Made by a program: the position numbers and the translations under genes
The notes under the pieces: generated by a model
Seen by the model: the letters and a program-made list of their open reading frames with translations, nothing else
What the model was told of the DNA's origin: nothing
Database searches by the model: none
Part shown: in pieces, positions 46,853-57,329 of the stretch
Layout: every line of letters begins with the position of its first letter
Position numbering within the stretch: the first letter of the stretch is position 1
Assembly: GCA_016177845.1 (NCBI GenBank)
Contig: JACOUO010000011.1
Coordinates: forward strand, 192,326 to 256,325
Length of the DNA stretch: 64,000 nucleotides
Reading direction: 5' to 3'
DNA from: Deltaproteobacteria bacterium
Lineage (GTDB): Bacteria; Desulfobacterota; GWC2-55-46

Positions 46853-48556
46853 TCAGTCCACGACCTGTGTTGCCTGCAGGACTTCCTCTACAGTAGTGTG
46901 CCCGCCGACAACTGCCCTAATGCCCTGTATCCTTAATGATTTGAAGCCCTTTTTCCTTGCGGCTTCTATGACAGTGTTGTTATCTGATTTGGAAACTATC
47001 ATTGAGCGAAGTTCCTCATCAAGCACGAGTACCTCGTAAATGCCGATCCTGCCCTTGAGCCCTGTGTTTTTGCAGGCAGTGCAGCCTGAGCCCTTATAGA
47101 ACTGGGGAACTTTGCCGGGGAATTTCACCCCAAGCTCGGCGATAAGACGCTGGTCAGCGTCAAACGGCGCCTTGCAGTTGTCGCATATCTTTCTTACAAG
47201 CCTCTGCCCGACAATGCACGAGACTGCCGAGGATACGAGATATGGCTCTATCCCCATATCAAGAAGCCTTGAAATAGTGCCTATCGCGTCATTGGTATGT
47301 ATGGTCGATATTACGAGATGGCCTGTCAAGGCCGCGTGTATGGCGATATCCGCGGTTTCTTTGTCCCTTATCTCTCCTATCATCACGATATCAGGGTCCT
47401 GCCTGAGTATATGGCGCAGCGCACTGGCAAATGTAATTCCGACCTTGGTATTGACCTGTACCTGATTTATCCTTTTGATGTGGTATTCTACCGGGTCCTC
47501 GACAGTAACAAGGTTCTTATCCATGGTGTTGAGGAGGTTCAGTAATGTATAAGCGGTGGTTGTCTTACCGCTTCCGGTCGGGCCTGTAAGGAGTATCATC
47601 CCGAAGGGCCTTTTTATTATCTTTTTAAGTATTGCCAGGGTATCGGGGTTTGGCGTCAGGTGGTCGAAATCAAGGACAAGCTTGCTTTTATCCAAAAGCC
47701 TTAAGACCGCTTTTTCTCCAAAGATGGTAGGTAGCGTTGAGAGCCTTATGTCAATGTCATGGCTGCCGAGCTTCACTACAAAGCGCCCGTCCTGAGGAAG
47801 CCTCTTTTCCGCTATATCAAGCTCGCCTAATATCTTTATCCTTGATATTACCGCAGGGTGCCACCTGAGCGGAAGATTTGCCGTCTCCTGCAGCACTCCG
47901 TCTATGCGGAGCCTTATTCTTAATGTGTCCTCATCAGGCTCTATATGGATGTCTGAGGCGTACTCCATGACAGCCCTTGAGATGATGAGATTTACAAGCT
48001 GTATGATGGAAGTGTCAGCCGCTATCTTCTCAAGCTTTTCAGGAAGGTCTTCCTCGCCCTTAAGAAGCTCAAGGCCAGAGGCCTGAACCTTTTTAATCAT
48101 CTCCTCAAGAGAGGTCTCCATGCCGTAGTACTGATTAATGGCCTTGAGTATCTCGGTCTCTGTCGTTACAAAAGGCTCTACGGTGCGGTTTGTAATCCTT
48201 TTTATCTCATCGATGGCAAAGACATTCAAAGGGTCAAGCATCGCTACCTTGATGCTATCCTTCTCAGTCGATATCGGAAGGACCATGTAACGCCTTGCGA
48301 TTGCCTCAGGTATCAGTTTGCTTGTCTGCGGATCAAGGATGGTGTTGGAGAGCATTATGGAAGGCATCTGGTACTGGTCTGCCAGCGCCTTTGCGATGTC
48401 TTCTTCGGTGGCATAGCCAAGGTTGACAAGGACCTTGCCTATACGGGTATTGGTCCTTTTGCCTTCACGCAGGACCTCTTCGAGCTGGGCAGAAGTGATG
48501 ACACCCTTGGCTTTGAGTATCTCTCCCAACGGCTGGATTTTCTTGATTACCGTCAT
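46853..48556 (-). CDS. pilB: Pilus assembly ATPase PilB/MshE with MshEN domain
   Basis: I choose ATG 48556 (567 residues, MTVIKKIQPLGEIL) with GGAAGG before it. The N-terminal MshEN domain (about 5-150) has RIGKVLVNLGYATEEDIAKA, close to the cyclic-di-GMP-binding motif of MshE. The ATPase core shows Walker A in LTGPTGSGKTTTAYTLL, the Asp and His boxes (VEDPVEYHIKRINQ, GHLVISTIHTND), Walker B in IVMIGEIRD, and a four-Cys zinc site (CDNC ... CTAC). It powers pilus extension. No retraction ATPase (pilT) is found in the window. Confidence 0.93.
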   Translation of the reverse strand: MTVIKKIQPLGEILKAKGVITSAQLEEVLREGKRTNTRIGKVLVNLGYATEEDIAKALADQYQMPSIMLSNTILDPQTSKLIPEAIARRYMVLPISTEKDSIKVAMLDPLNVFAIDEIKRITNRTVEPFVTTETEILKAINQYYGMETSLEEMIKKVQASGLELLKGEEDLPEKLEKIAADTSIIQLVNLIISRAVMEYASDIHIEPDEDTLRIRLRIDGVLQETANLPLRWHPAVISRIKILGELDIAEKRLPQDGRFVVKLGSHDIDIRLSTLPTIFGEKAVLRLLDKSKLVLDFDHLTPNPDTLAILKKIIKRPFGMILLTGPTGSGKTTTAYTLLNLLNTMDKNLVTVEDPVEYHIKRINQVQVNTKVGITFASALRHILRQDPDIVMIGEIRDKETADIAIHAALTGHLVISTIHTNDAIGTISRLLDMGIEPYLVSSAVSCIVGQRLVRKICDNCKAPFDADQRLIAELGVKFPGKVPQFYKGSGCTACKNTGLKGRIGIYEVLVLDEELRSMIVSKSDNNTVIEAARKKGFKSLRIQGIRAVVGGHTTVEEVLQATQVVD

Positions 48557-48584
48557 CTTCTGCCTTCCGGTACTTTCTCTGTGA

Positions 48585-48613
48585 AGATTATCGTATTGGG
48601 AAAATCTTGTCAA
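48585..48613 (-). promoter_or_regulatory. Candidate promoter of the pilB-pilC operon
   Basis: On the minus strand a perfect TTGACA (48613-48608), then either TAATCT at 17 nt or GATAAT at 15 nt. The rest of the 302-nt gap up to 48858 holds the acl terminator and otherwise AT-rich sequence with nothing I can identify. Confidence 0.5.
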
Positions 48614-48805
48614 ATTTCAAGCGGATTTTGGATTTTCGGCTTAAAGCTCAAAAAGAAACAGGGAGCGGCAAAATAGGCGATGGACTCATAAAATGGAGCT
48701 GATAAATATGAGAGAGTATCTAAAATCCTGCTTTGATTACGGTTATTATATTCCAAGCAGAGGTAAAATAAAACAAATTTAAAATAGGGCTCGGGAAAAT
48801 AAAAA

Positions 48806-48833
48806 AACCCGGGAGGTAAAATCCCCCCGGGTT
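48806..48833 (-). terminator. Intrinsic terminator of the idh-aclBA unit
   Basis: On the minus strand AACCCGGGGGG and CCTCCCGGGTT pair over 11 bp (one G-U) around a 6-nt loop, followed by TTTTTATTTT. It lies 26 nt after the aclA stop. Confidence 0.9.
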
Positions 48834-48858
48834 GGCGTTTCGTTTTATGCAGTTCAGA

Positions 48859-51570
48859 TTAGCCTACGAAGCTGCACTTTGAAGCCGCTGTCCTTGTATC
48901 CATGTTGCGGCCTCTGTTGATATGGTCGTCTATCTCGGCTGCGCAGCCTATCATCCTTCCGAAGAGGAATGTGGTGAATGCCGCGGCTTCGACTTCCTTA
49001 TCCGACATCTTGCCTGTGTTGAAGGCTTCCCATACGACTTTAAGGAGGATGACGGCAATGACCGCATCGACATTGACGCAGTACACATTGGAGCTGACCT
49101 TTGCCTCATAAAGCGACCTTACAAGGTTCTGATAGAATTCGAGGAACACATTGTAGATGCCTTTTTCCTCAAACAGTGAGCTTACGAACCTTTCCCTCGG
49201 GTCAAAGTTTACTTCCTTGCCCTTGAATACCGGGTGGTTAACGCAAGGTATCTTCATGTACTCGATATTTCCGAATGCCTTCTGGTCAGCCTTGTACTTG
49301 GCGTATGACTTGGCATATTCATCGGCAATGGCCTTAAGGTTAAGCCCGTGCTTTTTGTCAGCCGGGTTGTTGAGCCCTTTGCCCTTGAACCTGTCGATGA
49401 GGAACGCGATGGCTTCAAAGCCGTTGCCGCCGTGCGCAAAGCCTGTGTGTGTAAGGAATCCGATAAAGGCCTTGTTTATCTGAACCCTGTGCGGGTCTTC
49501 GGGGCCGTCGGAGCTTACGCCGCCTTTGCAGCCCTGCGCTGAGATCGTGCCCGGGCCGTTTGAGATGATAAGGCCAAGAAGCATTGAGAACTCGAAACGC
49601 TCGGCCTCAGTCGGTTTCCTGCCGATAAGGGCAAGGAATGCCGCGTCAGTAAATGTCCAGTTCCCGATAAGGTCTTCGTTCTTCACACCGCAGAAGCTGT
49701 CGTCTGTCTGCTTTACAGCAGGCACGCTGCAGCCTACGAATGAAGAGAATACCCTTGAGTACCAGGGCAGAGCTGTGATTGTTACCTTTGATATATTCCT
49801 CTTGAAGAGCGGCTCCCATCCCAGTGTCATCCAGATCGCGGCAAGAATCGCGCTTGAAGAGGGGTTGCCTCCGGCGGCTTCTGTTACGAACTCAACGAAT
49901 ACGGACTTTTTGCCGAGCTTTGCGAGGCTCTGAAGCATCAGTCCCGACCTCTTGTCGTCTTTACAGGCAACGAGAGATTTTTTTGCGTCATCTGAAAGGC
50001 CCGCAAGAACGGCTGAGCAGTCAAATTTGTCAGCGGGGTTTGTAAGCCCTGAAGACTGGAAGCTCTCAAGTATAAGTTCTGATGTACCGATTGCCTTCTT
50101 TACCTTGCCCTTGCCAAGTATCGAGATAGCCGCTGAAAGAACGCTATTGGGTGAGCTTTCAGCTTCCCTCGCCGCGTCAGCCGCGATATTTGACGGGTTA
50201 TTGTGATGGTTCAGATAGGCATTGAAAGCGATATTGGCAAGAGACCTGCCAAAATCATCCGGGTAGCCCTTAAGGAGCGAGAACACAAGATTTTCCTCAA
50301 GTGAACGCTTTGAAGCGTCGAGGATCGACATGTTGTAGAGCTTTGTCACCTGCGTGTTCGGGTCCATCATGGAGGCGCCGCTTGCGTCCTTCATTGTCTG
50401 CCTCGGGTACTGCGCGCCGACCTGCTTGTTTATGTGATCGATCTGCTCGTCATACGGAGCTTCCGCGCGTACTGCCGGCACATCGAGTTCCTTTGGCAGC
50501 TGCAGTGAGGCATTGTTCGCAAACCAGCACTTAAGCGAAAGGTCACCCTTTGGCTCGAAGTCAGGCTTTATCCCGTTAAGCTCCATTACCTTTGTAAGGG
50601 CTTCGGGTATGTAGGCGATATTGGTTACAACCGCGCCCTTCTTTGAGAATATCGGGGTCTGAGGGGTGTAGATTCCGTCAACCCCGAAGTAATCCATATA
50701 CCACTTCTCTTTTGCCTTTGCGTCATCGCCTGAGCCCGCAAGGCTGCCTGCGTGTCCGCAAGCCTTTGTAAGCCTTGCCTTCCACCTTCCGACAACGCAT
50801 GCTACCGTAGGCTTTGTTATATTTAGCTCGTGCTCATAGTATCCGCCCGGCTCTGTGTAGATGACCGCAGCCTTTGACCTGTCGTCGTTGTCAAGGGCAT
50901 GGAAGAACTCTTTTGGGGCATAATGGATGTAAACATCCTTGCCGCTTGATACGGAGGTCGTTGTTCCCCAGCCCTTTGTGAGCAGGTAAACGGCTATTGT
51001 CGTTGTGAAGTTGCCTGAGTTTGAGAATAAGGCGACCGACCCCTTTACAAGTGATTCCTCAGGCTTGTTACCGCCGAGGGCTCCGCCAATCCTGACCTTG
51101 TTCCATGCGTCCGCAACACCAAGGCAGTTTCCGCCGAACACATCTATTCCGTTTGTCTGGCATATCGCCCTTATTATCCTTGCGTCATTGACCGATATCT
51201 TCTCTGTAAGGATAATGATCTTTTTAAGGTCAGGGTTATGCCTTACAGCTTCAGCGACACCGTCCTTAACGCCTGAAGGCGGCAGGTAGATGACTGCCGT
51301 GTTGAACTTATGCCCTGCTTTGATGCCTTCGAGTATCGAGTTGTAAACAGGGATGTTGCCTATCTTCGTCTCGAGGGACTGACCGGATCTTCCCGGGCTT
51401 GTTCCGAATACAATATTTCCGCCTGAATATATGTGGCTTACCGGCGTGACTGTCTTACTCTCATTTCCGGTGATATTAAGTACGACTACCCGGTCTTCTC
51501 TTGTCGCTATCTCAGACAGCGAGTTTATTCCTACATAGTAAGGAAAATTTTTAAGGCCTTGTTTGTGCAT
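48859..51570 (-). CDS. aclA: ATP-citrate lyase, large subunit (CoA-ligase plus citrate synthase-like)
   Basis: A 903-residue protein. The first 350 residues are the CoA-binding/ligase part, with the phospho-accepting His273 in KACGHAGSLAGSG. The C-terminal part is citrate synthase-like, with HTGFAHGGNGFEA (His713) and a late DDHINRGRN, the lyase active-site region. It cleaves citrate to acetyl-CoA and oxaloacetate with ATP, the key step of the reductive TCA cycle. Green sulfur AclA is about 600 residues; this is some 300 longer, as in the so-called type II enzymes. An extra citrate synthase-like segment lies around 400-620. It lies 31 nt after aclB. Confidence 0.93.
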   Translation of the reverse strand: MHKQGLKNFPYYVGINSLSEIATREDRVVVLNITGNESKTVTPVSHIYSGGNIVFGTSPGRSGQSLETKIGNIPVYNSILEGIKAGHKFNTAVIYLPPSGVKDGVAEAVRHNPDLKKIIILTEKISVNDARIIRAICQTNGIDVFGGNCLGVADAWNKVRIGGALGGNKPEESLVKGSVALFSNSGNFTTTIAVYLLTKGWGTTTSVSSGKDVYIHYAPKEFFHALDNDDRSKAAVIYTEPGGYYEHELNITKPTVACVVGRWKARLTKACGHAGSLAGSGDDAKAKEKWYMDYFGVDGIYTPQTPIFSKKGAVVTNIAYIPEALTKVMELNGIKPDFEPKGDLSLKCWFANNASLQLPKELDVPAVRAEAPYDEQIDHINKQVGAQYPRQTMKDASGASMMDPNTQVTKLYNMSILDASKRSLEENLVFSLLKGYPDDFGRSLANIAFNAYLNHHNNPSNIAADAAREAESSPNSVLSAAISILGKGKVKKAIGTSELILESFQSSGLTNPADKFDCSAVLAGLSDDAKKSLVACKDDKRSGLMLQSLAKLGKKSVFVEFVTEAAGGNPSSSAILAAIWMTLGWEPLFKRNISKVTITALPWYSRVFSSFVGCSVPAVKQTDDSFCGVKNEDLIGNWTFTDAAFLALIGRKPTEAERFEFSMLLGLIISNGPGTISAQGCKGGVSSDGPEDPHRVQINKAFIGFLTHTGFAHGGNGFEAIAFLIDRFKGKGLNNPADKKHGLNLKAIADEYAKSYAKYKADQKAFGNIEYMKIPCVNHPVFKGKEVNFDPRERFVSSLFEEKGIYNVFLEFYQNLVRSLYEAKVSSNVYCVNVDAVIAVILLKVVWEAFNTGKMSDKEVEAAAFTTFLFGRMIGCAAEIDDHINRGRNMDTRTAASKCSFVG

Positions 51571-51601
51571 GACTCCTCACCCTTAAGTTTAATTTTAGGT
51601 G

Positions 51602-52903
51602 CTATTTCCTGGCAGGCTCTGCAGCTACGGCATTGCCTGACCCAAGTTTCTGGTTGAACATAGCCCTGCCTTCCTTCTCCATCCACTTATCGATATTGAG
51701 CGCGTAGTTGACGACTTCGCTCATGGCGCTGTCGTGGCCGAATATCCTGTAAGGGAGCTTAAGGTTCTCAAGGGTATCCCTCATGTAAGCCATACCCCTG
51801 ATAAGGTTCGGGCCGCCCCTTCCGATTACGACAAAAAGAGGTGTGGGGCCGTTTTTGTAGAAGTAGTCCTTAAGGGCGTCTGCCATTGCCCTGAATGTCT
51901 CGTAGATGTCGGTGTTGTTTGCCTTGCCGCCGATTATAAAGAGGACATTGGACTGCTTGAGCCAATGCTTGAAGCATATTCTTGAGATCTGGTACATCTT
52001 CTCGTAAGGCGGGTTTCCGCCGAAGTCGGAAGATATTGTAGCCCTCTCACCGAGAAGCTCAGTAACAAGCGCGTTCGCGCCGCCGCCGAATGTGGGGGCT
52101 GTTATCGTGCCTTTCGGGTTGATGACGAAAACATCGCTCTGGCCCTGGTATGTCCTTAACTGGTTGATTTCCTGCTCGAACTCTGAATAATCGGATGCAA
52201 ACAGATGGGCAGGAAGATCAAGCCTTTTCCAGGCCGGGTTATCGATGTCAAATGAACCTTTGAAGTCGCAGGCAACGGGAATAAGCCTTCCCTTTGAATC
52301 AGCGCTCATCCTTATCGGGTTAAGCTCCAATGTGCTCATGCCGTAGTTGTTGTAGAGCGTCCAAAGCTTGGGCAGGTTCTGTACGAGCGGGCTTATTATC
52401 TCGCAAGGCGCGCCGAGCTGTGTAAGGGCGTTTGAGATATGGAAGCTCTTAAGCCCTGTAAGCGGGTCAAAGGGCACTTCCATTATCTTGTCCTTGGGAA
52501 GCTCTTCGATATCCATACCGCCGTGGTGCGTAATGGTCATTATAGGTGAACGGTATAATGTTGAATCGCTGATTGAAAAATAGACCTCATGTTCTGCCGG
52601 AACGCCGCCTTCGAAGGTGACTCCGTCAGCCTTGACTGATGTATTGCCGAAGGTGTGCTCGATGAAATAGAGCCTTTCCTTCTCTTTGAGGGCTGTTGTG
52701 ATATCCTTTGCCCTGCCGATAAGGCCTGCCTTGCCTTTTTTGCCGACACCGCCCTTGAAAATGGGCTTTATGAAGACCTGTCCGCATCTTTTGATGAGGT
52801 CTTTGATCTCATCAACACTTGCCTCAGGGCCAAGGACTTCGGCAGACGGGAACTCAACGCGCTTTAAAAGCTTGCTGCCCCACTGAAGGCCTGTAAGCTG
52901 CAT
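51602..52903 (-). CDS. aclB: ATP-citrate lyase, small subunit (ATP-grasp plus citrate-binding)
   Basis: A 433-residue protein. The N-terminal ATP-grasp part (about 1-235) includes VFIKPIFKGGVGKKGKAGL and STLELNPIRM; the C-terminal succinyl-CoA-synthetase-like half includes TFGGGANALVTELLGE and VIGRGGPNLIRGMAYM, which binds citrate and carries the power helices. With AclA it forms the citrate-cleaving complex. CGGAGG precedes the ATG. The order idh-aclB-aclA on one strand suggests a dedicated carbon-fixation operon, with a strong hairpin in the idh-aclB gap. Confidence 0.92.
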   Translation of the reverse strand: MQLTGLQWGSKLLKRVEFPSAEVLGPEASVDEIKDLIKRCGQVFIKPIFKGGVGKKGKAGLIGRAKDITTALKEKERLYFIEHTFGNTSVKADGVTFEGGVPAEHEVYFSISDSTLYRSPIMTITHHGGMDIEELPKDKIMEVPFDPLTGLKSFHISNALTQLGAPCEIISPLVQNLPKLWTLYNNYGMSTLELNPIRMSADSKGRLIPVACDFKGSFDIDNPAWKRLDLPAHLFASDYSEFEQEINQLRTYQGQSDVFVINPKGTITAPTFGGGANALVTELLGERATISSDFGGNPPYEKMYQISRICFKHWLKQSNVLFIIGGKANNTDIYETFRAMADALKDYFYKNGPTPLFVVIGRGGPNLIRGMAYMRDTLENLKLPYRIFGHDSAMSEVVNYALNIDKWMEKEGRAMFNQKLGSGNAVAAEPARK

Positions 52904-52950
52904 AACTACCTCCGTTATTCAATTTATCTTGTAAATCAGTGATTATTAAT

Positions 52951-52992
52951 GCTCTTCCCTGATCAGCCTTTTCAGGCGGCTCAGGGAAGAGC
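52951..52992 (-). promoter_or_regulatory. Strong intercistronic hairpin between idh and aclB
   Basis: GCTCTTCCCTGA (52951-52962) and TCAGGGAAGAGC (52981-52992) pair perfectly over 12 bp around an 18-nt loop that can itself pair (GCC/GGC). No T-run follows on the minus strand, so it looks like an mRNA-processing or stability element rather than a terminator. Confidence 0.65.
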
Positions 52993-53008
52993 CATGCATC
53001 GCTATTCT

Positions 53009-55237
<2,229 letters not shown>

Positions 55238-55351
55238 CTATATATTTTCCTTAACAAATTAATTATCAAGGATTCGGATCTAGGGTATATATATCAGCAA
55301 AAACACAGGCCTGTTTTTTTGCGCTTAACCGGCGTTTTTTTAGAGGCACTA

Positions 55352-55380
55352 ACTAAAACAATTTTTCCTTGTTTTGTCAA
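55352..55380 (-). promoter_or_regulatory. Possible second idh promoter downstream of the riboswitch
   Basis: On the minus strand a perfect TTGACA (55380-55375), a 17-nt spacer and TTTAGT (55357-55352). The -35 box sits inside a small dyad (CCTTG-N6-CAAGG, 55368-55383). If active it would bypass the riboswitch. The remaining stretch to the idh ATG is AT-rich with no reading frame. Confidence 0.4.
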
Positions 55381-55416
55381 GGATTTTCAGCTGTTAGGGG
55401 CTCGAAAAACACGCAT

Positions 55417-55479
55417 AAAAAAACCGCCTGAGCAATTGTAAAACAGGTCAAAAAAGACCAGTTTTAAATGCCCAGACGG
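55417..55479 (-). terminator. Riboswitch expression platform: intrinsic terminator
   Basis: On the minus strand CCGTCTGGGCA (55479-55469), which is also the 3' end of the aptamer, pairs over 11 bp (two G-U) with TGCTCAGGCGG (55434-55424), followed by seven T (55423-55417). An inner hairpin (GGTC-T6-GACC) fills the loop. Aptamer and terminator cannot form together. Confidence 0.85.
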
Positions 55480-55550
55480 TCGGCTTATCCGAATATATTA
55501 CTTTCCGCTCCCCGGTGGTGTCCACCTTGATTCCGTCAGTTACGGAAGTT
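55469..55550 (-). promoter_or_regulatory. ZTP (pfl-type) riboswitch aptamer
   Basis: Read on the minus strand. P1 is UUCCG (55547-55543) with CGGAA (55507-55503). The P1 internal loop holds UAACUGACGG, matching the UGACUGGCG of known ZTP aptamers. P2 with its flank reads GGUGGACACCACCGGGGAG, almost letter for letter the pfl consensus. After a linker, P3 (UCGG/CCGA) leads into the conserved CCGUCUGGGCA. The pseudoknot GACGG with CCGUC replaces the common GGCG/CGCC pair by covarying bases. ZTP riboswitches sense AICAR triphosphate, an alarm for 10-formyl-THF shortage. A 16-nt palindrome (55552-55567) precedes it. The downstream gene is idh. Confidence 0.85.
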
Positions 55551-55585
55551 CGGCTTGCATGCAAGCCTATGTTTGAAGCGGGATA

Positions 55586-55614
55586 AATGTAATACAAAAC
55601 TATTATTTTGTCAA
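55586..55614 (-). promoter_or_regulatory. Sigma70-type promoter feeding the ZTP riboswitch
   Basis: On the minus strand TTGACA (55614-55609), a 17-nt spacer, TACATT (55591-55586). Transcription would begin near 55579, about 30 nt before the aptamer, and just after the HIT gene stop. Confidence 0.7.
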
Positions 55615-55649
55615 GTCCATATTTTGATTTCAGAAGAGGCCGGATATTC

Positions 55650-56129
55650 CTATAAATCGGAGAAGCGGGGTCGCAGTTTTTCCAGAGTTTTGTGGAGGTG
55701 TTCAGGGATGACCTTCACATCAGAGAGCACAGGCATGAAGTTTAAATCCCCATTCCAGCGGGGTACTATGTGCATATGGAGGTGCTCGTCAATGCCTGCC
55801 CCAGCCGCCCTTCCGAGGTTCATGCCGATATTGAAGCCGTCAGGCCTGAATACCTCTTTAAGGACTTTCACAGCATGGGCCATAAGGCGGAACATGTCCG
55901 CTGATTCTTCCGGCGTAAGCTCTTCAAGGAGTGCGGTATGCCTGATGGGTGAGATGAGCAGATGACCGCTGTTATATGGGAACTTATTGAGAATCACGGA
56001 AGATATTTTGCCGCTGTAAAGCACAAGCCCCTCTAAAGGTTCTTTTAAAGGCGCTGTGCAGAAAACGCATTTGCCGTCTTTTTCAGCCTCAATGTACTCC
56101 GCGCGCCAGGGAGCCCAGATTTGTTTCAT
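55650..56129 (-). CDS. HIT family hydrolase
   Basis: A 159-residue histidine-triad protein. The triad is HLHMHIVPRW (H-x-H-x-H) near residue 115. The N-terminal CVFCTAPL is a CxxC zinc half-site; MKQIWAPWRAEYIE and NKFPYNSGHLLISPIRH are typical of the HIT/galT-like or Ap4A-phosphorylase-like branch. It hydrolyses or phosphorolyses nucleotide adducts such as Ap4A; the exact substrate is open. It follows the HU/IHF gene by 5 nt. The riboswitch promoter lies directly after its stop. Confidence 0.9.
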   Translation of the reverse strand: MKQIWAPWRAEYIEAEKDGKCVFCTAPLKEPLEGLVLYSGKISSVILNKFPYNSGHLLISPIRHTALLEELTPEESADMFRLMAHAVKVLKEVFRPDGFNIGMNLGRAAGAGIDEHLHMHIVPRWNGDLNFMPVLSDVKVIPEHLHKTLEKLRPRFSDL

Positions 56130-56134
56130 AAAAT

Positions 56135-56416
56135 CTAAGCCTTGTTGATCCTTTCCCTGATTTCCTTGCCTGCCTTGAAGAACGGGACTTTCTTTGACTC
56201 AATAAATATGTTCTCGCCTGACTTGGGGTTGCGGCCCTGCCTGCCGTCGCGGTCCTTTATCTTGAAGCTGCCGAAGCCGCGTATCTCGACCTTGTCACCC
56301 TGTGAAAGGCTGGAGGACATGCTTTCAAAAAGCGTATCCACGATTATTTCGATGTCCTTCCTTGAGAAGTTGTTTACCTTTGAAGAAACTATTTCGATAA
56401 GCTCACTCTTGGTCAT
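56135..56416 (-). CDS. HU/IHF family DNA-binding protein
   Basis: I choose ATG 56416 (93 residues, MTKSELIEIVSSKV) because GGAGGAG stands before it; longer in-frame starts run into sppA. The two N-terminal helices and the DNA-binding arm with GRNPKSGENIFIESKKVPFFKAG are those of IHF-like proteins. It bends DNA and shapes the nucleoid. Lying after sppA and rpsA, it resembles the ihfB place next to rpsA in proteobacteria, so an IHF-beta-like role is possible. Confidence 0.92.
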   Translation of the reverse strand: MTKSELIEIVSSKVNNFSRKDIEIIVDTLFESMSSSLSQGDKVEIRGFGSFKIKDRDGRQGRNPKSGENIFIESKKVPFFKAGKEIRERINKA

Positions 56417-56442
56417 TACTGCTCTCCTCCTTGTCATCCGTA

Positions 56443-57329
56443 CTAATCTGGTTTTGATGTTAGGTACATAACGCGAAATCCTGAAAAAAGCTCGGTAAAG
56501 TCTTTTGAGATTGATTCTCCGAATACCGTCTTCCAAAAGCTCAACGCTTTTTTCTCAGGATATATTACTTCAGGTTTCCCTTCAATGCCAGCCATTCTGG
56601 CGCTTAGTTCTATTGCTTCCTGCAGTCCGCCGAGCTCATCAACAAGGCCTTTTTCCTTTGCCTGTGAGCCTGTAAGTATCCTGCCGTCGGCTATTGCCTT
56701 TACATCTTCGAATTTAAGGTTCCTGCCTTCAGCCACAGCCTTAATGAACTGGTTGTTGACCTCGTCTATTACGGCCTGTATCAGCTTTTTCTCCTCATCT
56801 TCCATCTTGCGAAGAGGTGAGCCTACATCCTTATACTTTCCGCTTTTTACTACATATCCTTTCCTTTAAGCCCGATCTTACCCAAGAGTTCTTCGGCGTT
56901 CATAAACTCGACTATTACGCCGATGCTCCCGGTAATGGTACCGGGGTTTGCTACAATCTTTTCAGCCGCAACCGCTGAGTACAGACCGCCGGAAGCGGCT
57001 ATTGTTCCCATTGAAGCGACTACTGTTTTGACTTCTTTAAGCCTTAAGATGCGGCTGTGTATCTCCTGTGAGGGAGCGACCGCCCCTCCGGGAGAATCGA
57101 TCCTTACCACAACCGCTTTTATATCATCCCTCTCCTCAATGGCCTCAAGCTCCTGCCCAAACTCAGTAGGGTCGGTAATGACCCCTGTGAGCTCGACAAC
57201 CGCAACTTTATCTGCGCCGGATATGCCTTTACGGCCTATAAACACCGCAATTATAACCGAAAGAGCGATAATTATAAAGAACACGGCTCCGAAAGCTGCC
57301 AGAAAATTTCTTATCCTCTCTCCCCTCAT
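56443..57329 (-). pseudogene. sppA: sppA signal peptide peptidase, interrupted by a frameshift
   Basis: The first frame (57329-56850, 159 residues) has an N-terminal membrane helix, the fold strands DSPGGAVAPSQEI and the nucleophile Ser in IAASGGLYSAVAAEKI, then stops at KIGLKGKDM. The next frame continues without overlap as VVKSGKYKDVGSPLRK, which contains the catalytic Lys of SppA, and runs to 56443. The shift falls near 56850, at GGAAAGGATATGTAG. Both halves match one SppA of about 290 residues. A one-base loss (or two-base gain), a sequencing error or a recoding event could explain it. An ATG at 56805 starts after the Lys and could not restore activity. Its start overlaps the rpsA stop. 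Confidence 0.78.

Follow-up and report, generated by a model that had tools for sequence, protein, structure and literature searches.

Introduction

ZTP is read as an alarm for a shortage of 10-formyl-THF and adjusts purine and folate genes. The published targets of ZTP riboswitches are genes of purine or THF metabolism, among them purH, fhs, pfl, glyA and folD (PMC2864571), and further targets are serine synthesis genes and moeA (PMC9481103). In the ZTP switches that have been studied, the terminator strand displaces P3 and the pseudoknot; in those of Clostridium beijerinckii and Fusobacterium ulcerans, the ligand secures both elements against this invading strand (PMC10085676; PMC11419147). 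Nucleotides G63, C69 and G71 of the ZTP switch contact the ligand (PMC11419147).

Here, we analysed the leader of an idh-aclB-aclA operon in a 64-kb stretch of DNA (hereafter, the window) from the class GWC2-55-46 of the Desulfobacterota. The class is uncultured, and its gene control is otherwise unstudied in the literature searched. These central-carbon genes lie outside the described ZTP regulon of purine, folate and one-carbon genes. Literature searches, which did not extend to the target list of Kim 2015, found no report of a ZTP riboswitch with isocitrate dehydrogenase (IDH) or rnf, and nothing relevant on a riboswitch with ATP citrate lyase (ACL). The riboswitch class is known; the target set is the news, as far as the searched literature shows.

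Results

A ZMP/ZTP Riboswitch Aptamer Upstream of idh-aclB-aclA

A scan of the 64-kb window with 4227 Rfam families returned the RF01750 aptamer on the minus strand (Table 1) and nothing besides. The match covers the full length of the model (1-86 of 86) and scores 58.1 bits vs a gathering score of 39 (E = 7.7e-7 for 64 kb and 4227 families). The preliminary description had proposed a ZTP/pfl-type aptamer within 55614-55417, an interval that corresponds to promoter through terminator, and the covariance model, helix covariation and motif conservation all bear this out. Specifically, helix P1 has compensatory changes at 4 pairs in 22 aligned IDH/ACL-linked aptamers, and the entire aptamer structure in these copies has 26 two-sided cells vs a shuffled mean of 7.2. 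In the aligned orthologous leaders, 94.9% of cells in P1 and 93.2% in P2 are paired, two-sided changes occur at 5 pairs, and the covariation score is 0.202 vs 0.112 for shuffled alignments. The pseudoknot GACGG/CCGUC, which had been described as covarying, is identical in 22/22 aligned IDH-linked aptamers; where the Rfam consensus has GGCGG/CCGCC, both strands have changed in such a way that they still pair, and the altered form is invariant within the class.

Among the 102 aptamers that we collected from the class, ACUGACGG is present in 100 and G(C/U)CG(A/G)CCGUCUGGG in 98. The ligand-contacting nucleotides G63, C69 and G71 (PMC11419147) map, by our own assignment, onto the shared GACCGUCUGGG. 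A chance match or a remnant aptamer was ruled out by the score, the covariation and the conservation throughout the class. Its sequence places the element securely in the known riboswitch class RF01750, with ZMP/ZTP as the predicted ligand. Note that three aptamers elsewhere in the class (L205, L207 and L209) have unusually long insertions (144-156 nt), which leave their scores around or under the Rfam cut-off, so that more may be missed.

Table 1. Features of the idh-aclB-aclA locus (positions within the window)
Feature	Position	Strand	Remarks
Promoter-like pair P1, TTGACA-17-TACATT	55586..55614	(-)	upstream of aptamer
ZMP/ZTP (pfl) riboswitch aptamer	55463..55553	(-)	P1-P2, pseudoknot GACGG/CCGUC, 3' domain GCCGACCGUCUGGGC
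Intrinsic terminator and U-run	55416..55481	(-)	5' arm is the aptamer 3' strand; GACCGUCUGGGC pairs with GCUCAGGCGGUU
Second promoter-like pair P2, TTGACA-17-TTTAGT	55352..55380	(-)	between terminator and idh
idh, monomeric NADP-dependent isocitrate dehydrogenase, 739 aa	53009..55228	(-)	TIGR00178 1360 bits (cut-off 950), PF03971
aclB-like, ATP-grasp and citrate-binding domain, 433 aa	51602..52903	(-)	PF16114, PF08442
aclA-like, succinyl-CoA-ligase alpha and citrate-synthase/citryl-CoA-lyase domain, 903 aa	48859..51570	(-)	PF02629, PF13607, weak PF00285
Operon-end terminator	48806..48833	(-)	11-pair stem and T-run; strongest terminator-like site in 48500-56500

A Terminator That Overlaps the Aptamer and a Second Promoter

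An intrinsic terminator follows the aptamer, as had been claimed: the hairpin at 55481-55422 of the minus strand folds with -32.4 kcal/mol (z -9.8), and the U-run comes next. The equilibrium fold of the entire leader is the terminator form. With the 5' arm of the hairpin formed by the 3' strand of the aptamer, the terminator and the P3/pseudoknot are mutually exclusive, both at the locus and in 22/23 IDH leaders. In the first set of genomes, the terminator overlaps the aptamer in 22/23 IDH, 15/15 serine and 22/23 Rnf leaders, and the sequences of the terminator loops differ among leaders despite the kept overlap. The aptamer fold, the pseudoknot, the conserved 3' domain and the overlapping intrinsic terminator are those of the Clostridium beijerinckii pfl and Fusobacterium ulcerans switches (PMC10085676; PMC11419147), and from this shared geometry we infer that ZTP should turn expression of idh-aclB-aclA on. 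The transcript from promoter P1 would fold the aptamer; in the absence of ZTP/ZMP, the later invader strand GCUCAGGCGGUU would displace P3 and the pseudoknot and complete the terminator, and in its presence the aptamer would retain its 3' strand, so that polymerase would continue into idh-aclB-aclA.

The promoter expected before the aptamer is present as a promoter-like pair (P1 in Table 1), and a comparable pair occurs in the 100 nt before the aptamer in 25/35 IDH/ACL-, 29/30 Rnf- and 19/20 serine-linked leaders. A second promoter, P2, was barely hinted at in the preliminary description and is conserved in relatives. Its context, TTGACAaaa..gga.AaT.TG.TTtAgT.a.tgcctCaAaA, is shared among most IDH leaders, and its distance to both sides varies. 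A loose search, which includes some chance pairs, placed promoter-like pairs at the P2 position in 29/35 IDH/ACL, 10/20 serine and 16/30 Rnf leaders; those in the serine and Rnf leaders are mostly other sequences than those in the IDH/ACL leaders. Because P2 is conserved in the IDH leaders, idh could be produced without the switch, and P2 would supply a basal idh-acl level that bypasses it. ZTP control of idh-acl is probably additive, not exclusive, with a basal promoter and a ZTP-inducible one. The earlier statement that the riboswitch controls idh-aclB-aclA was right in that a ZTP switch precedes the operon, but too strong in that the conserved P2 can transcribe idh without it. We also record the conserved P2 between the ZTP terminator and idh as a dual-promoter arrangement on a riboswitch operon.

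The idh-aclB-aclA Operon

The order on the minus strand is promoter P1, aptamer, terminator, P2, a good ribosome-binding site, idh, two ACL-type genes and a strong terminator, and the anticipated series of idh, aclB, aclA and a single strong terminator was recovered through TIGR00178, the ACL-type domains and the operon-end site (Table 1). A missed local gene between the switch and idh was rejected as the real target, as no separate gene recurs there and idh is the next conserved frame. The nearest solved structures of the aclB-like product are the large subunit of citryl-CoA synthetase (6hxq_B) and then ATP-citrate lyase; that of the aclA-like product is the small subunit of citryl-CoA synthetase (6hxq_A), and citryl-CoA lyase models cover its residues 619-896. 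An ATP-grasp and citrate-binding subunit, together with a CoA-binding/ligase subunit that has a lyase-like C-terminus, resembles the citryl-CoA synthetase or ATP-citrate lyase of reverse-TCA autotrophs. Unlike in the citryl-CoA synthetase 6hxq, a single protein of 903 aa here combines the small-subunit domain with a citrate-synthase/lyase-like one. The domains and the closest structures fit a citrate-cleaving module with the predicted activity of ACL, or of CCS plus CCL.

Conservation of the Arrangement and Its Exceptions

The search began with 40 relatives and was extended to the 63 available genomes of the class, and RF01750 matched in 47/63. In the sampled genomes of the phylum it matched in 15/247, and 8 of these 15 belong to the window's class. 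By coordinate matching, the aptamer lies 130-512 nt upstream of IDH in 34/47 class genomes in which the IDH start is present, and in 22/22 of the window's own family, so that the element is indeed conserved upstream of idh in relatives. The arrangement occurs in 6/13 families of the class, because of which an assembly accident or a recent transfer was ruled out. The remaining 13/47 IDH genes have no ZTP match; in one of them, G061, the aptamer is degenerate, and in three others (G036, G037 and G048) the upstream sequence is shorter than 250 nt. Among 80 IDH loci of named genomes across bacteria, ZTP with a monomeric IDH was absent except in one, L033 (JACRCM010000079.1; IDH identity 84%, aptamer present), a member of the window's class.

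Several genomes depart from this order in informative ways. In G059, the switch precedes a dimeric NADP-IDH (PRK08299, 635 bits) followed by aclB and aclA, so that an unrelated dimeric enzyme replaces the monomeric IDH. In G035, the switch lies directly before aclB, and idh is elsewhere. G054 and G055 retain the ZTP-IDH arrangement, and their acl genes are on another contig without ZTP. These cases suggest that IDH and ACL are each targeted in their own right, IDH being the more constant. Furthermore, a deletion upstream of idh in G057 (L251, G057:C7) joined the aptamer stub CAACTGACGGAATCAAGGTG to the remaining leader; the terminator and P2 are both gone and idh-acl stay, which makes this genome a natural loss-of-switch case.

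ZTP Aptamers on Other Genes of the Class

The targets of the 102 class aptamers are IDH and/or ACL (36), Rnf (30), AGAT-serA-hisZ-purA (20), a CPA2-type cation antiporter (5), PntA-AB-B (5, partly with ppa), sucC-sucD (4) and Kup (1); the tally includes one aptamer at a contig end without an assigned target. Target families were named from NCBIfam, and the AGAT gene scores below the cut-off of its nearest family, so that only "aminotransferase" is certain. The Rnf-linked targets include rnfC/D/E. The aptamer directly upstream of rnf at L144 (G000:C18:435956-436044) and at 29 other loci makes rnf the second commonest class target. Aptamers upstream of the NAD(P) transhydrogenase PntA-AB-B were seen at L232, L241, L206, L208 and L209, some with pyrophosphatase. 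At L229, L233, L236 and L242, aptamers lie upstream of sucC-sucD, and korA comes next if the contig extends far enough; a terminator overlapping the aptamer was found in none of these 4 leaders, and their expression platform may differ. Aptamers also lie upstream of K+-type transporters (CPA2 antiporter and Kup; L178, L184, L189, L215, L217 and L234).

Three ZTP aptamers lie in the window's own genome, one each on idh-acl, AGAT-serA-hisZ-purA and the rnf operon. This genome also encodes sucD-korAB, fhs and a further 2-oxoacid:ferredoxin oxidoreductase that resembles PorA models, and RF01750 gave no match near any of these. In a terminator-pattern search of this genome for more ZTP switches, the window's site alone matched; the pattern missed the two other known sites and is therefore too strict to exclude more switches. 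Outside the class, within the same phylum, aptamers lie on the expected targets fhs (G121 and G155) and AGAT-serA-purA (G253).

Discussion

With a probability of about 0.7, we consider the ZTP riboswitch to be a transcriptional ON switch for idh-aclB-aclA that acts on top of a basal level from P2, belongs to a class regulon and has a CO2-to-one-carbon purpose. The aptamer, the overlapping terminator, the gene order, the conservation and the replacement of the IDH type were established by computation; from them we infer the ligand, the ON direction, the activity of P2, the reductive direction of flux and the purpose. When 10-formyl-THF is short, ZTP would raise the reverse-TCA steps (OGOR, IDH and ACL), and it would also raise serine synthesis and the supply of the reductants required, ferredoxin through Rnf and NADPH through Pnt. 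Overall, ZTP would control the path that leads from CO2, by way of 2-oxoglutarate, citrate and acetyl-CoA, to serine and one-carbon units.

Compared with the published targets (PMC2864571), the class differs by IDH, ACL, OGOR/sucCD, Rnf and Pnt. AGAT-serA-hisZ-purA follows the same logic as the ZTP/glycine tandem on Bacillus serine genes (PMC9481103), because serine is a one-carbon source; unlike in that tandem, the aptamers here are single and the target set extends to central carbon and redox genes. The preliminary description had suggested a tie to CO2 fixation or NADPH supply, which is strengthened by the class targets Rnf, PntAB, sucCD-korA and serA. Judging by these targets, ZTP probably contributes to the induction of carbon fixation in the class. 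SucCD, OGOR, IDH, ACL, Rnf and the transhydrogenase are each a ZTP target somewhere in the class, and ZTP might even be a general carbon-fixation alarmone there, turning on all of these, which cover the greater part of the expensive reverse-TCA reactions and the systems that pay for them, as well as serine/purine synthesis, so that one-carbon shortage would directly govern autotrophic CO2 fixation; we put this wider proposal forward tentatively, at slightly less than even odds. A conserved set of ZTP switches on reverse-TCA, Rnf and transhydrogenase genes would let a purine intermediate govern how fast CO2 is fixed and low-potential electrons are supplied, and it gives the reverse-TCA cycle a testable regulatory input. 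The K+ transporters among the targets are unexplained by a carbon-fixation logic.

The idh-acl genes might instead be expressed essentially from P2, with the riboswitch arm as a small or rare contribution. P2-like pairs are found in 29/35 IDH/ACL leaders vs 25/35 for P1, and G057 has lost the switch. However, P2 was lost in G057 through the very deletion that removed most of the aptamer, a P1-like promoter is still in place there, and nearly all leaders of the window's family retain the aptamer, the terminator and their overlap. That the aptamer and the overlapping terminator have persisted speaks against transcription of idh from P2 only, and their retention, also with the replaced IDH of G059, would require selection on the P1 arm. 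We therefore regard an operon driven mostly by P2 as improbable.

The ON switch could also serve NADPH supply, with NADP-IDH, alongside Pnt, as an oxidative source that aids folate reduction and purine synthesis; ACL would be carried along and the link to CO2 fixation would be incidental. This would fit G054 and G055, where IDH alone keeps the switch, as well as the targeting of PntAB and the NADP dependence of both the monomeric and the dimeric IDH types. It would leave unexplained the switch on aclB without idh in G035, and the genomes carry ACL-type genes and OGOR, fitting a reductive flux. None of Rnf, korA, acl and sucCD supplies NADPH, and we therefore consider a purpose confined to NADPH rather unlikely. 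A drift of the class aptamer towards a different ligand, such as one that signals energy or osmotic state, would account for Rnf, Pnt and the K+ transporters in a target set that is unusual for ZTP. Such a drift is highly improbable given that the mapped contact positions lie in the shared GACCGUCUGGG, that the changed pseudoknot keeps its pairing, and that serA-purA, an expected ZTP target, has the same aptamer in the same genome.

Apart from the switch, the window's own genome encodes UbiU and UbiV (L274 and L275) above curated cut-offs, which belong to the oxygen-independent ubiquinone pathway. A 2026 survey located this pathway, beyond Pseudomonadota, only in the class GWC2-55-46 of the Desulfobacterota (PMC13386864).
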